From positions 1 through 33,358 of the forward strand of contig JAAEPD010000489.1 of NCBI GenBank assembly GCA_024222455.1: a stretch of DNA of 33,358 nucleotides, read 5' to 3'. A model generated the notes under the pieces. That model had not been told where the DNA came from, did no database searches, and was given only the letters and a program-made list of their open reading frames with translations. How positions within the stretch are numbered: the first letter of the stretch is position 1; each line of letters begins with the position of its first letter. Shown one piece after another: positions 23,635-31,210 of the stretch. Position numbers and translations under genes: made by a program. This DNA is from Aureispira sp. GTDB taxonomy: Bacteria; Bacteroidota; Bacteroidia; Chitinophagales; Saprospiraceae.

Positions 23635-24477
23635 TTACAATTTATTCAAGACTTCTAAAAAGTCTTGAGGTTCGGGGCGTATTCTATAGTTCTCTGTCAA
23701 ATCTCTATACACAATCTTACCTTCTGCATCACAGATAATTACGGTAGGCAATACCGTATCGCTTGCATAGCCCAATGCTTGTAAACCTGTAGGCAATCCA
23801 CCATCATGAGCAATACCCAACTGTTGAGCAGCCTTATTTTCTACATCTACTAGAAAATCAAAATTCACCTCATGTTTTTGAGCCAATGATTTAGTGAACT
23901 TATGCGGCTGAGGGCTAACTAAAGCTACCTTTGCCCCTATTTTTTCTATCTCTTTGTAGCTCGCTGCTATTTCTTTTATCTGCATCATACACAGTGGGCA
24001 CCAATTCCCCCTATAAAACAACCAAACAGTCGGCTGCCCTACAAAGTCATTGGAAGACACCTTTTCTCCTTGAGGATTCTCAAACCCTACTTTGGGCAAC
24101 AACTTCCCTACATCCAAACTAGGTGTATGTCGATCAAGCCTAGAATACCAATAGACATAAGCCAACCACCCTACCACAAAAACTAAACTCAAACCTAAAC
24201 CATAATAATTGAGCTCCGCATCCAAAAACAAACTCAATATAGCCAAATCTCCACCCAAATACATGGGGATAGAAAAAGGCAGCAAATGTCGATCTACCGT
24301 AATTTTAGGTTTCACAAAAATAATACTAAAAAAGCCTGCCACCACTAGGGTATTCAGCAATACTCCCCACCACAAAAAAGAGCTAGAAAACCCTTCACTA
24401 TTCATTCCTAACCATGCACCTCCCAATATAATTAAGGCTATAAAAGAAGATAGGAATATTGATTTTATCCAATTCAT
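23635..24477 (-). CDS. membrane-anchored peroxiredoxin/AhpC-TSA-like protein
   Basis: 280 residues. Four membrane helices occupy residues 1-115. A thioredoxin-fold domain follows (about 125-278) with FYRGNWCPLCMMQIKEI, redox pair Cys160-Pro-Leu-Cys163, then ALVSPQPHKF, DVENKAAQQLGIAHDGG and the cis-Pro region TVLPTVIICD. This looks like the peroxiredoxin-like/redoxin group, which reduces peroxides or disulfides. The membrane part has no family I recognise, so the fusion is notable. Which side of the membrane the redox domain faces cannot be fixed from sequence alone. It is monocistronic. Confidence 0.8.
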   Translation of the reverse strand: MNWIKSIFLSSFIALIILGGAWLGMNSEGFSSSFLWWGVLLNTLVVAGFFSIIFVKPKITVDRHLLPFSIPMYLGGDLAILSLFLDAELNYYGLGLSLVFVVGWLAYVYWYSRLDRHTPSLDVGKLLPKVGFENPQGEKVSSNDFVGQPTVWLFYRGNWCPLCMMQIKEIAASYKEIEKIGAKVALVSPQPHKFTKSLAQKHEVNFDFLVDVENKAAQQLGIAHDGGLPTGLQALGYASDTVLPTVIICDAEGKIVYRDLTENYRIRPEPQDFLEVLNKL

Positions 24478-24715
24478 GTTGATCTATTATCTTATATAAA
24501 GCAACCACACCTAAAATCATTTTTAATAATTTTAGAGCCATCGCATCAAATGTTGAAAGTTGAATGTTATAATGTTGAATAAAAAACAATCCATCTAAAC
24601 TTTTCTAAAAAAAAGTTAAGATTGGTTCAAAATCATTAAAAACTCAATATTTAAACATTGGGAATAAGTGGCTAAATTTCCTTTAGAAACTTAGATATGT
24701 TTCTCTTATTATCTT

Positions 24716-24936
24716 AACGTGAACTAAGGATTAAAATACCTGATAAATAACTAATAACAAACCTTTTGTCACTCAGAGTGGGACTAAATGTCCCCGAAGA
24801 GTCTCAAAGTACTTTCCAGTTAGTGGTAACCTGAGACTCTTCGGCGGTATCGAACCACCTCTGAGTGACAAGAAACTACCTCTTAATTGCTGATAATTAT
24901 TGATTAATAGGAAGCTTTAGCTCTTTAGTTCACGTT
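24716..24936. mobile_element. MITE-like element C with 12-bp inverted ends and 5-bp target duplication
   Basis: A 221-bp non-coding element. Perfect terminal repeats AACGTGAACTAA (24716-24727) and TTAGTTCACGTT (24925-24936), flanked by the direct repeat ATCTT on both sides (24711-24715, 24937-24941), as left by a transposition event. Inside, a second, nested inverted pair forms a long cruciform: TTGTCACTCAGAG and CCGAAGAGTCTCA on the left arm recur inverted on the right arm, each arm also carrying a small hairpin (GGGAC/GTCCC left; GGTGG/CCGCC right). No coding capacity. It lies between the A2M gene's 3' end and the redoxin promoter. Confidence 0.7.
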
Positions 24937-24979
24937 ATCTTATACTAGTTTCCAATAGGCTACACTATCCACAACAGTC

Positions 24980-25039: not shown

Positions 25040-28000
25040 TTACTTCACTTGTACACGTATTCCTTCAGAATGCGATGTAAACTCAGGCGCATACATACAT
25101 TGTATAGTTGTCACACCATTAGAGAAATCACCTTTATGATTAACACGTAGTGGATATTCAAATACATAAGTACCTTTAGAAAGATAGCTAATAAAGAAGT
25201 TAGTAGAAGCATCACGAGTGCTCTCATAGTAACCTAAACCACCTTGATATTTGTACTGACTTAGGGTATTTTCTGGCTCAAAACCAGAAGCACGAGTATC
25301 TTTCATGTGTACATACTCCATATCTCTGTCTACTTTCAGCTCTATGCGCACAGTCAAGAGGTCACCAGGTTCTAAGCTTACATCCTTAGCATCTATCGCT
25401 TTCAAGACAGGCCCTTTGAGGGTATTTACCTTTTTGAATACCTTCTTATTCAATTTCAAAGGTGTTTCTTTGAAATGTGTAATCTTGTCCATATCCTCAA
25501 AATACTGCCAGTACAATGCACCCCAAGAAACTACATTGTTAGGATTCTTGATGGTAATAGTTGCCATATCAGGCGTAATTTCATCAGCTTCCCAAGTTTT
25601 CTTGAAATAACCAGTTCCAGCCTCTTTCTTGATTTGAGATTGGTCTAATTTGGTTTTGCCCATTTTGATGAACACCTCTTTATCCTCTGCCAATAAGTTA
25701 TTACCAGTCATTAGCAAAGCATAACAAGAAGCTGCTGTAGCCTTAGTGGTCTTCCAATGTGTAGTTTGTTTTGCTTTTAACAACCAAGTTTTAAGGTCTT
25801 CTACAGCTTTATCATCCTTAGCTACTTCATGGAATACTTCTATCATCAAAGCATGTGTTTCGATAGGTAATTGATACCAAAAATAACCAGAAGGATACTT
25901 CCAATACATGCCCATTTCGCTATGGTTAAGTGCTTTTTCTTTCAAAGATTTTACAATTGCTGTAGGAGTCACTTTATCTTCACCTTTGCGGTGCATAGTC
26001 AACGCTAACATTCCTTGCATGTAGATACCTTTGTTCAACCAATATTTTACAGCTTGCGCTTCATAATAAGCAATCGCCTCTTTAGTAATTGTATTCTCAA
26101 TACCTGCTTCAGGATAAAAACTACGCGCATATAGATAATGCATTACCATTCCATCTAAATGATCTTCTGCCAAGTACTTCTCTTTATCCTTTTGTTTAGC
26201 AGCATACTCCAACAAACGAGTATAATGATCCGCCAATTCTTGGTCGATATAGCCCAATGCTCTAGCCATCATTACCATAATCTTGTTATCCTTATCTCTT
26301 GCACCTAGCTTATCTAAGTGCCCCATTCCCTCTACTAAATACTGTGTTACATACCAACTATCTTGCCCACCAGGGAACCAAGAAAAACCGCCATTAGACA
26401 ACTGACGGTCTGCCATTTTATCTCTAGCATCGGCCAACTCTTTGCTCATACGGGTCATATCAAACAAAACACCGATGTTCTGTTTTTGCTGTTCTTCGCT
26501 TTGTGCTTGCATTACCCATGGCGTTTCTTCGAGTAGAGCAGATTTTAGCTCTTGATTTTTGCTCAAGTTGCTCAACATAGCATCCTTATCCACTGTTTTC
26601 CATTTCTCAAACACCTCTTTTACTTTAGGATGAGAATTCACCACACTTGTTGCTAAACTATTCGCATAAAAACGAGAGAACACTTGCTCTGTACACTCAT
26701 AAGGATACTCCATCAAGTAAGGCAATGCTTGCACAGCATACCAAGCAGGATTAGGCGTAAACTCTAGAGTCAACTTGTGCTGACGCATAGTAGGCGATTT
26801 GCTCACCTCTGCCATACGCTTAAATGTAAATTTGCGTTTTTGTTTAGCACGTACAGGTAGTGGCATCGTTTCCGTCACCAACATACGATTCGTCAATACA
26901 GGCAATCCGTTTTCTTCTCCATCAGAGAAATCACCAGATTTAGCTATTACTTGATAAGACAATGTATTGGTCCAAGTATCAGGTACTTTTATCTTCCAAG
27001 ATAGAGGTGCAGACTGTTTAGACTTAGCTTCAAAATTTAAGGTAGCTTTGCTATTTCCAAAATCTACATCTACAGGCTTCATGGTTACAGCATCAAATAT
27101 TTTCAAGATAGCCTGTCCTTTCATCAGCTCTTCTGTCATATTAGACACCTTAGCTGTTAACTCTATCTCATCGTTCTGACGTAAGAAACGAGGCACATTT
27201 GGCATAATCATCAAATCCTTTTGAGTCACCACTTCTTTGGTAGAAGTCATGGTCTTAAGATCTTTGGTATGTGCAAATAGCATAAACTTCCAACGAGTCA
27301 AGGCCTCATTCATCGTGAATTTGATAATCACATTGCCTTCTGCATCAGTCATCAAATCAGGCATAAAGAATACCGTCTCATTAAGATTGGTACGTACTTT
27401 CACCTCTGAAAAATCTTCTGCATCACCTTCTGGCTTAGTAGTAGGTTCAGGGTCAGTAATAGTCTGATTCTTTTTAGCACTCTCTTTTCTAGCTACCTTA
27501 GCTGTCGCTGTAGGAGCTTCTGTTGGTTGTGGATCTGGTTCTGCCATAGGAGCCATGTCTTCCTCCATCTCTTCCATTTTATCACCATCCATCATAACTT
27601 CATTGCTACTGCTTCTAGCCACCATTTTATCACCATAATATCCATAGTAATCATAAAAGGCAAAACCAAACCACTGCAAGTATTTGTAAGATCGACTTGG
27701 TGCATAAGTTTTTTCCCACCAGTTATCATGATTAATACTGTTAGCATAAGAGGAGCGGAAACAATTATTTCCTTGCCAATACAATCTACCATAGTTATTA
27801 GGCCAACTAACACGAGACCAATAATTAGAAGCAAATACATCTAAAGAAGCATCATACATACTAGCTACTACTTCTGCAGCTACCTTATCCCCTTTAGGAC
27901 CAGATATTTTAACCTGCCATTCTTCTTCTTGTCCTGGCAACAGCTTGTTTCGGAAAGAACTGTACTCTATTTTTAAATCCTTGTTGCTCCAAGGCACTGT

Positions 28001-31000
28001 TATATTTCCATTAGTGCTAAAGAAACGGTTGTGCTGAGCATTCATGATATGGAAGGCTACACCACCACGGTGCTTTTCTTCTATCACAAAAGGGATACGT
28101 TGACGACCTTCTGATTTCACCCATTGCTTACCGATTATCTCATTATCGCGCTCAAACTCTACTAAAAGTTCTGCATCCTTATTTATACTACCTAAATCAA
28201 CATATACAGTATCTCCAGGCTCCCCTTTGAGAGATGTCTTAGCCACAAATAAGGCTTGATTTAGAGGCACCTCTTTGGCTTTTTTATCAAACAAGGTAAA
28301 ATACTTTTGCAGTTCGATTTTTTCGCCATACTTATCTTGCGTTTTCAAGGTCAGTTTGTATTTGCCTTGAGGCCAAGATTTAAGGTCTGCAATAGTCAAC
28401 TCTTTCGATTTTTCGGTATCAAAGTCACTACTTAAAGTAGTTTTGACTATTGGCCAATTTTTGTAATCATCTTCTGTTCCATAAGGAATTGTTGGAAACC
28501 ATTTTTTGAAATCAGCTTCACTAATAGTTACCATATCTGGTGCACTCCAATAACGGCTAACATAAGGCACCTCAGGCGTTTTCAATTGCTCAATAACAAC
28601 TGTTCCTTTGGCTGCTTCAAATTCGCCATTAAGATTAGTTGTTTTTATTTTGAATGGCTTGGCAGAATTGCGCTCCACATTACCAGAAACTCGAATATCT
28701 GTACTCAAAGTAATATAACCCACACTTACATAAACCTGTGTACTGTGCGTTTCGCCTGTAATATCTACTATATCTGCATATACGGTATAGTTGAATTGTG
28801 GTTTTCGATCAGCTGGCAAGTTCTTATCTGCCTCCGCCTTAAAACTGACCTTAAATTCTCCCTTTTCATCTGTAACTGTTTCACCAAAACCAATCTCTTT
28901 GTCAGGAGTGCTATAAGGATTATAGCCCCAACGCCACCAATTCCAATAAGGGAAACGAACCTGACGAACTACTCTATATTTCACTTTAGCACCATCTACA
29001 TTGTTTCCTGCATAAGCTTGCGCTATACCTGTTACAGTAACAGAATCATCCAACTTGAAAGCACCTGTTACTGGATTAAATTTAGCCTCAAACTTCGGAC
29101 GTTTATATTCTTCTACTCTAAAATATTTATTAGAAGTATTACCACCATAACTAGATTGTATGCGCATAGAACCCAACATTCCTTTGGCAGGAGCTACAAA
29201 CTTAGCATTGTACGTCCCATACTCATTGGTGGTTAGTGTCATTCTATTCACCTCTTGGTAGTTGGCATCATAGAGTGCAACACTCACACTTTCGTTGGTT
29301 ACTATTTCTCTACGTCCATCAGGATGATAAGCCACTAATAAACCTTTGAAATAAACGGTCTGTCCTGGTCTATAAATAGCTCGGTCTAAGAAGAATGTTG
29401 TCTGATAACTAATCCGCTCATTCCTATCATATTTATAATTGAAAAAACTATTTTTTGTGTCTAAATAATCTTTTTTGTAAAAGAATCTAGGATATAGATT
29501 TCTAGAGTTATAATCTGCTGCACTAACTGATTCTGAAGTCAAATAGCCATCTTTATCACTAGTTGTTTCTCCAGCTTTGATATATTCATAAGCACGCTTG
29601 CTAGAGTTGTAGCGACTCACCCAAAACTCACATCTTACGCCTTCCAATGGCTGTCCAGTCATGCGATCTACTACATTAAACTCTGTGTATCCTTTATACT
29701 TCTGTTTTCTGGAGGTATAAGCAATATTAGACACTCTAAAATGTATGTAGGTTACTCCATTATTATCATGTTTGAATCTCTTGTCTTCAGAGACAACTAA
29801 CATATACTGTCCTGTAGATTGTCCAGGCACCATCAATTCTGTACTGTGTGCATGGTAGTCACCTCCATCTTCAACAGTAAGATCCCATTTCTTGATCGGG
29901 CGCATAGACCCTAAGTATTTTATTTTTTCTGCGCTGGTCCGTTTTTTATTAAAAATAGCCAGTTTTTCATCATCAACTTCCAACAATCTAAAGTATAATT
30001 TAGATACATTTCTATAGTCTAACTTTGCTAAAATTGGTTTATTGATAGGCTCTATAGAAGCGGTCATTAAATTCATGCTTTTGGCACGTATTTGTGACTG
30101 CAAAGCTTCACACTTTTTAGCTCCATAACTCCCTGGAAATTTCGAGATTATTTTAGCACAATATTCATAAGCTTTTTTACGGTCCCAACGTTTAGGGTTT
30201 TCCTTATCCTTAGGATCATAAGAGGACTGGTTGTAATAATTTTGTGCAATCTCATAAGAAGCCTCTGCTGAAGCTGGTGATTTTGAATAATCCTTTTCTA
30301 TGCGTTGCATCTGTTCAAAAAACAGCTCATCTTTGTTTGATAAAATGCTATTGTTGCGGACAAAACGCAAGCGTTTTAAATCCAAATCAATTAGCCCAGC
30401 AGGGTCTTTATCCTTTTCATGAAATTTCAAGGCATCTTGAAACAACACTAATGCCCAATAACGTACTGCTAAACTATCCTTTGTCTTATAAGTTGCTCCT
30501 AAAAACTCTTTTAGGTTGCCATGCATAGCTGGTTCCTGAATATAAAATTCATATACCGGTTTGGTAAGGTAATAACGTGTATTCGAAAAGAAGTCGATAG
30601 CTCTGTGTACCAAAAAGTCATAAACAGTAGGACGCAAACCTTTATTATAAACACCTCCAGCCGTAATAGCTTTAAACTGCTCTATAGGAGTAGTTTTGAT
30701 CTGCTCTTGAGCTATAGAAGCTTGGTACAGCTCAAAAATGGTAGTTGTAAACATTTCCATATCCCAAAAGTGGATACTATCTGTGGTCATGCCCTCTACT
30801 GGTGTACGCTGAGATACTTTGTAGTAATTATTTTCTAGGTATTTAGTGTAGCCCTCGGCCAACAAAGAACCTAAAATAGATTTGAGTAGAGGATCTTTTT
30901 CTGATTCATAAGCATCCTTAAAACGATAAATGGCAAACTCTACTCCTCTTTCCTCTAGCCTCGACTGATACTTATTGTAATGAATCAGTGCCTTGACATA

Positions 31001-31210
31001 TTGAGGTGCATAGTAGTCTTTTTTGGATTGCGACTTTATTTTCTTGAGCAATTTTTCAGTCTCTTTCAAGGCTGATTTAGGCAGCCCTTTTCGCTCTAAA
31101 GAATCAATAGTTTTCCATTGTTTTTCGTAGGGTGCTTTTTTATTTTTTTGGGCAAACATGGTGGTTTGTCCAAGCAGTACAAAAGCTAAAATCCAGATTA
31201 ATATCCTCAT
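25040..31210 (-). CDS. giant alpha-2-macroglobulin family protein with intact thioester motif
   Basis: 2056 residues. Signal peptide (1-20, ending MFAQ) without a lipobox, so a soluble or otherwise attached periplasmic protein. An N-terminal helical/TPR-like region (about 25-370) precedes macroglobulin domains, with the MG2/MG3 hallmark FFLDRAIYRPGQTVYFKG near residue 612. An acidic, Pro/Thr-rich linker (about 1185-1260) sits where a bait region could be. The A2M domain follows (about 1265-1360), then a thioester domain with YPYECTEQVFSRFYANSL, Cys1506 and Gln1509 forming the CxEQ thioester, then a C-terminal receptor-binding-like beta domain. Bacterial A2Ms trap proteases or protect the envelope. 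No penicillin-binding protein 1C gene is adjacent, unlike the enterobacterial pair. Element B lies just before its start. Confidence 0.92.
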   Translation of the reverse strand: MRILIWILAFVLLGQTTMFAQKNKKAPYEKQWKTIDSLERKGLPKSALKETEKLLKKIKSQSKKDYYAPQYVKALIHYNKYQSRLEERGVEFAIYRFKDAYESEKDPLLKSILGSLLAEGYTKYLENNYYKVSQRTPVEGMTTDSIHFWDMEMFTTTIFELYQASIAQEQIKTTPIEQFKAITAGGVYNKGLRPTVYDFLVHRAIDFFSNTRYYLTKPVYEFYIQEPAMHGNLKEFLGATYKTKDSLAVRYWALVLFQDALKFHEKDKDPAGLIDLDLKRLRFVRNNSILSNKDELFFEQMQRIEKDYSKSPASAEASYEIAQNYYNQSSYDPKDKENPKRWDRKKAYEYCAKIISKFPGSYGAKKCEALQSQIRAKSMNLMTASIEPINKPILAKLDYRNVSKLYFRLLEVDDEKLAIFNKKRTSAEKIKYLGSMRPIKKWDLTVEDGGDYHAHSTELMVPGQSTGQYMLVVSEDKRFKHDNNGVTYIHFRVSNIAYTSRKQKYKGYTEFNVVDRMTGQPLEGVRCEFWVSRYNSSKRAYEYIKAGETTSDKDGYLTSESVSAADYNSRNLYPRFFYKKDYLDTKNSFFNYKYDRNERISYQTTFFLDRAIYRPGQTVYFKGLLVAYHPDGRREIVTNESVSVALYDANYQEVNRMTLTTNEYGTYNAKFVAPAKGMLGSMRIQSSYGGNTSNKYFRVEEYKRPKFEAKFNPVTGAFKLDDSVTVTGIAQAYAGNNVDGAKVKYRVVRQVRFPYWNWWRWGYNPYSTPDKEIGFGETVTDEKGEFKVSFKAEADKNLPADRKPQFNYTVYADIVDITGETHSTQVYVSVGYITLSTDIRVSGNVERNSAKPFKIKTTNLNGEFEAAKGTVVIEQLKTPEVPYVSRYWSAPDMVTISEADFKKWFPTIPYGTEDDYKNWPIVKTTLSSDFDTEKSKELTIADLKSWPQGKYKLTLKTQDKYGEKIELQKYFTLFDKKAKEVPLNQALFVAKTSLKGEPGDTVYVDLGSINKDAELLVEFERDNEIIGKQWVKSEGRQRIPFVIEEKHRGGVAFHIMNAQHNRFFSTNGNITVPWSNKDLKIEYSSFRNKLLPGQEEEWQVKISGPKGDKVAAEVVASMYDASLDVFASNYWSRVSWPNNYGRLYWQGNNCFRSSYANSINHDNWWEKTYAPSRSYKYLQWFGFAFYDYYGYYGDKMVARSSSNEVMMDGDKMEEMEEDMAPMAEPDPQPTEAPTATAKVARKESAKKNQTITDPEPTTKPEGDAEDFSEVKVRTNLNETVFFMPDLMTDAEGNVIIKFTMNEALTRWKFMLFAHTKDLKTMTSTKEVVTQKDLMIMPNVPRFLRQNDEIELTAKVSNMTEELMKGQAILKIFDAVTMKPVDVDFGNSKATLNFEAKSKQSAPLSWKIKVPDTWTNTLSYQVIAKSGDFSDGEENGLPVLTNRMLVTETMPLPVRAKQKRKFTFKRMAEVSKSPTMRQHKLTLEFTPNPAWYAVQALPYLMEYPYECTEQVFSRFYANSLATSVVNSHPKVKEVFEKWKTVDKDAMLSNLSKNQELKSALLEETPWVMQAQSEEQQKQNIGVLFDMTRMSKELADARDKMADRQLSNGGFSWFPGGQDSWYVTQYLVEGMGHLDKLGARDKDNKIMVMMARALGYIDQELADHYTRLLEYAAKQKDKEKYLAEDHLDGMVMHYLYARSFYPEAGIENTITKEAIAYYEAQAVKYWLNKGIYMQGMLALTMHRKGEDKVTPTAIVKSLKEKALNHSEMGMYWKYPSGYFWYQLPIETHALMIEVFHEVAKDDKAVEDLKTWLLKAKQTTHWKTTKATAASCYALLMTGNNLLAEDKEVFIKMGKTKLDQSQIKKEAGTGYFKKTWEADEITPDMATITIKNPNNVVSWGALYWQYFEDMDKITHFKETPLKLNKKVFKKVNTLKGPVLKAIDAKDVSLEPGDLLTVRIELKVDRDMEYVHMKDTRASGFEPENTLSQYKYQGGLGYYESTRDASTNFFISYLSKGTYVFEYPLRVNHKGDFSNGVTTIQCMYAPEFTSHSEGIRVQVK

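Follow-up and report, generated by a model that had tools for sequence, protein, structure and literature searches.

A MITE of Aureispira sp. shares its ends with a multicopy IS982-like insertion sequence, very probably its mobiliser in trans

The window, by which we mean the whole 33,358-nucleotide stretch of Aureispira sp. DNA that was analysed, belongs to a genome (G000) of 7.76 Mb in 683 contigs. It holds a short element with inverted ends, which had been described beforehand from the sequence as a miniature inverted-repeat transposable element (MITE). The element sits in the gap between two minus-strand genes, next to the stop of an alpha-2-macroglobulin-like gene and the start of a redoxin gene, so no gene is interrupted. 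The features are as follows.

23635-24477, minus strand: AhpC-TSA/redoxin gene, a neighbour; the MITE is upstream of its start
24710-24716, unstranded: left target duplication TATCTTA (read as ATCTT, 24711-24715, in the preliminary description)
24716-24936, unstranded: candidate MITE, 221 bp in the limits of the preliminary description; 219 bp (24717-24935) if, as in IS982, the ends start with AC
24716-24733, plus strand: left end AACGTGAACTAAGGATTA; both ends of the partner insertion sequence start with the same 18 bp
24766-24871, unstranded: folded repeat in the interior, made of two GTCACTCAGAG...CGAAGAGTC units inverted relative to each other, with a small stem-loop in each
24925-24936, minus strand: right end AACGTGAACTAA, 12 bp that repeat the left end perfectly in inverted orientation
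24936-24942, unstranded: right target duplication TATCTTA (previously read as ATCTT, 24937-24941)
25040-31210, minus strand: alpha-2-macroglobulin-like gene, a neighbour; the MITE is downstream of its stop

The perfect 12-bp ends and the ATCTT on both sides that had been claimed for the element were confirmed: AACGTGAACTAA occurs exactly at 24716-24727 and its exact reverse complement at 24925-24936. When the window was scanned for perfect 12-bp inverted repeats with a spacing of 120-400 bp and the same 5 bp on either side, this was the one place found, and no such pair was seen in any of 200 simulated first-order Markov windows, which excludes chance as the origin of the pair. The claim that the element has no coding capacity also held, as no open reading frame of at least 80 aa overlaps the 221 bp. 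An empty site was not found, and the genomes searched included none of the same genus; in five relatives that have the redoxin gene, the ~1.5 kb examined beside it gave no match to alpha-2-macroglobulin.

The genome search for the ends that had been proposed as a check revealed dispersed copies, so that the element is not single-copy. Three further MITEs with these ends are present in G000. The second copy (C331:1266-1497, 232 bp) is near-full, being 94% alike over 209 bp and flanked by ATTTT; it has two changes in one end, and thus at least this copy has decayed. The third (C249:4255-4501, 247 bp) is diverged, has an exact TAACCTA on both sides and holds the internal repeat with its orientation reversed. 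The fourth (C131:10623-10831, 209 bp) is likewise diverged, lacks the internal repeat and has the flanks TATAATA and TTTAATA, which differ by one mismatch. These copies with duplications of their own, together with the ends shared with an insertion sequence, support the MITE reading of the preliminary description. When public genome contigs were scanned for exact matches to AACGTGAACTAAGGATTAG, a single further site came up, in a MAG of Saprospiraceae: a decayed element of ~330 bp (L077:4553-4885), flanked by AATT[C/T], in which the opposite end can still be recognised. The L077 element has the same ends and a different interior, which includes a TTTTGTCTTGATACAAAAGGAC palindrome. No match to the window element was found in 29 relatives or in plasmids and phages, nor was the end motif matched in viral contigs.

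The ends are far more numerous in G000 than the MITEs that carry them. Exact AACGTGAACTAA sites number 49, as against 2 for the reversed control, and nearly all lie within ~220 bp of a contig end. Two types of end are seen at the contig edges, type L in 19 contigs and type R in 24, and the 21 bp AACGTGAACTAAGGATTAGAA are common to both. We read this pattern as that of one multicopy insertion sequence which was collapsed by the assembler and which broke the assembly; at least two dozen copies of this partner are present. Type L encodes the last 34 codons of a transposase (AFSHLFAGLIAYQYLDKKPAIYYPSLTNVQHKAA-stop), and type R leads into the N-terminus of the same protein, of which the first 32 codons are seen (MNVQFTENKLIKLYIEIDDLLIAFRNYQAREG). 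The assembly thus shows the partner as two ends without the middle. The shortest G000 contig met was ~3 kb, so a collapsed partner contig of ~1 kb would be missing. The window MITE and the partner ends share 18-21 bp on both sides, and beyond the first ~18-21 bp no resemblance between them was found. The 34-aa transposase C-terminus had no match in plasmids. Two other contig edges deserve mention. At C155:1-166 (L075), a contig end, 27 bp identical to type L are followed by unrelated sequence, and this is perhaps another non-autonomous derivative. At C302:98-149 (L114), two AACGTGA ends of like orientation are separated by 34 bp, apparently because the partner inserted within or beside a related, older element.

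Both termini of the partner match the two ends of the transposase of L085, a complete relative in another genome of the family. The 301-aa L085 transposase scores 204.5 bits on the IS982 model NF033520 (cut-off 130) and has the DDE domain PF13612; the element itself is ~1.03 kb long, with the AACGTGA ends AACGTGAGTTCTGGATTA and AACGTGAATTCTGGATTA and a duplication. The preliminary description had also proposed a search for a transposase gene bordered by the same ends, and this was borne out in part: IS982-type termini do stand at matching ends in G000, but the complete gene was found only in the relative L085. Several further IS982 elements of the family likewise start with (A)ACGTGA. The L082 element has unlike bases in front of ACGTGAG on its two sides, and hence the leading A lies outside it. 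The NF033520 matches of G000 itself, L078-L080, were considered as the partner and rejected, as their ends are of the GCGAAT type. L078 (C354) and L079 (C95) are 301-aa IS982-like transposase genes that score below the NF033520 cut-off and have GCGAATCAAG-type ends; we regard these two as a group separate from the partner.

The exact limits of the window MITE bear on this assignment. The flanks can be read as the 5-bp ATCTT with 12-bp ends, or as a 7-bp TATCTTA outside 11-bp ends (ACGTGAACTAA...TTAGTTCACGT, 24717-24935, 219 bp), in which case the ends begin with 5'-AC (ACGTGAACTAA). It has been reported that IS982 ends begin with 5'-AC and that the length of the duplication varies (PMC7335449). 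Because of this 5'-AC start, and because TATCTTA fits the target motif of the partner, the 7-bp reading is probably the better one, although sequence alone cannot settle the point. ATCTT does flank the element on both sides, as first described, but a 5-bp duplication is the less probable reading. The motif was derived from the flanks of 43 partner ends, where an outer TA is positioned at −7/−6 in 28 and at −8/−7 in 11. The motif TA-N3/4-TA is thus found at 39 of the 43 ends, its final A being fixed by the search pattern so that the outer TA is the independent evidence. Left and right contig-end flanks paired by 8-mers above the level of column shuffles (p about 0.004); pairing by 7-mers alone was weak (p about 0.02).

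The element thus has ends shared with a multicopy IS982-like element, dispersed copies with duplicated flanks and a matching target motif. Our interpretation, which we hold with high confidence, is that it is a MITE mobilised in trans by the IS982-family transposase of the multicopy insertion sequence in the same genome. We infer that the partner transposase acted on the window MITE, and likewise in what order the events took place. In this scheme the shared ACGTGAACTAAGGATTA ends would be recognised by the transposase and the MITE excised or copied; it would then be inserted at a TA-N3-TA target, here TATCTTA, with duplication of the target.

One could envision instead that the folded repeat inside the element is the main unit, as a REP/BIME-like repeat, a functional RNA or a terminator, and that the transposon ends are incidental. 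The repeat is ~105 bp long and is present in about 10 copies; the DNA fold of the whole window element has a z of −6.8. In an alignment of 8 copies, 32 pairs were derived with 93% of cells paired, compared with 39-46% in slid controls, a percentage that is favourable by construction because the structure comes from the same alignment. Compensatory changes were seen in the stems, with 7 pairs changed on both sides and 19 such cells against 8.2 in shuffles. The repeat also occurs at C294, C437, C451 and C301, with no ends of the window MITE family seen beside it, and inside a second kind of MITE. This 278-bp MITE-like element (C572:1749-2026; L116:550-827) carries the same folded repeat between ends of the GCGAAT type, ATGCGAATAA[T/C]G[A/G]GTT, which are similar to the beginning of L080, an IS982-like element, and has TATTA on both sides. 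Like REP and BIME sequences, the interior of the window MITE consists of paired palindromic units that are inverted in orientation, dispersed and non-coding, but the folded repeat has about 10 copies only. For the repeat to be the main unit is nonetheless improbable, since the C131 and L077 elements have the same ends without it, the window MITE (C489) and C331 are alike over 209 bp with the duplications just outside the ends, and neither an RNA family above the cut-off in an Rfam search (one sub-threshold chance match was returned) nor a terminator-like site was found in the element. A single partial Y1_Tnp, at a contig end, was the only Y1 transposase found in G000. A literature search with a Bacteroidota hairpin string gave no match.

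It is still less probable that the element is an internally deleted remnant of the insertion sequence and not a propagated MITE, since the 18-21 bp common to the element and both ends of the insertion sequence are followed by no insertion-sequence DNA inside it, and the same interior stands elsewhere, at C331, with a different duplication.

Since the repeat occurs outside the MITE family as well as within another MITE type, its history is distinct from that of the ends. The interior of the MITE is a structured repeat enclosed by the ends and not a shortened insertion sequence. One speculative hypothesis, to which we give little weight, is that the folded repeat travels as cargo between two kinds of transposon ends, AACGTGAACTAA and GCGAAT, which match two different IS982-like elements, and that it might be selected for its fold, kept by compensatory changes, with any available transposase serving to spread it. 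Elsewhere in the genome, half of the folded repeat is followed by GAGTTCGCATTA at C283 (L127, about 500-620), perhaps the end of a second MITE of the GCGAAT type.

MITEs derived from IS982 elements are already known, and MITECca01 of Cardinium, ~240 bp long with ISCca4 of the IS982 family as its parent (PMC9769881), is a direct precedent. Compared by description, it is likewise a Bacteroidota MITE that lacks a transposase gene and whose ends resemble those of an IS982-family element present in multiple copies in its genome. MITECca01 was reported in large copy number (PMC9769881), whereas four MITEs with these ends were found here, and a structured interior that is found also outside the MITE is a feature in which the window MITE differs from it. 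Among Bacteroidota members of IS982, the duplication is 7 bp for IS1187 and 8 bp for IS195 (PMC7335449). The present system agrees with the family in its partner type of ~1 kb, in ends that begin with AC and in variable duplications, and L085 passes the IS982 transposase model; unlike members of the family, the window MITE has no transposase, and that of its host is known from its two termini. The preliminary description knew of no named family with these ends; the MITE family is indeed unnamed, but its ends belong to an IS982-family element, and MITEs derived from such elements have been published (PMC9769881).

Only the MITE family as such, its target motif and the folded interior that is shared are new here. 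A likely mobiliser has been identified for an unnamed MITE family, which adds a Bacteroidota case of IS982-derived MITEs beyond Cardinium and supplies a TA-N3/4-TA target motif. With the same folded repeat in two MITE types, one may ask whether structured repeats are spread by MITEs.
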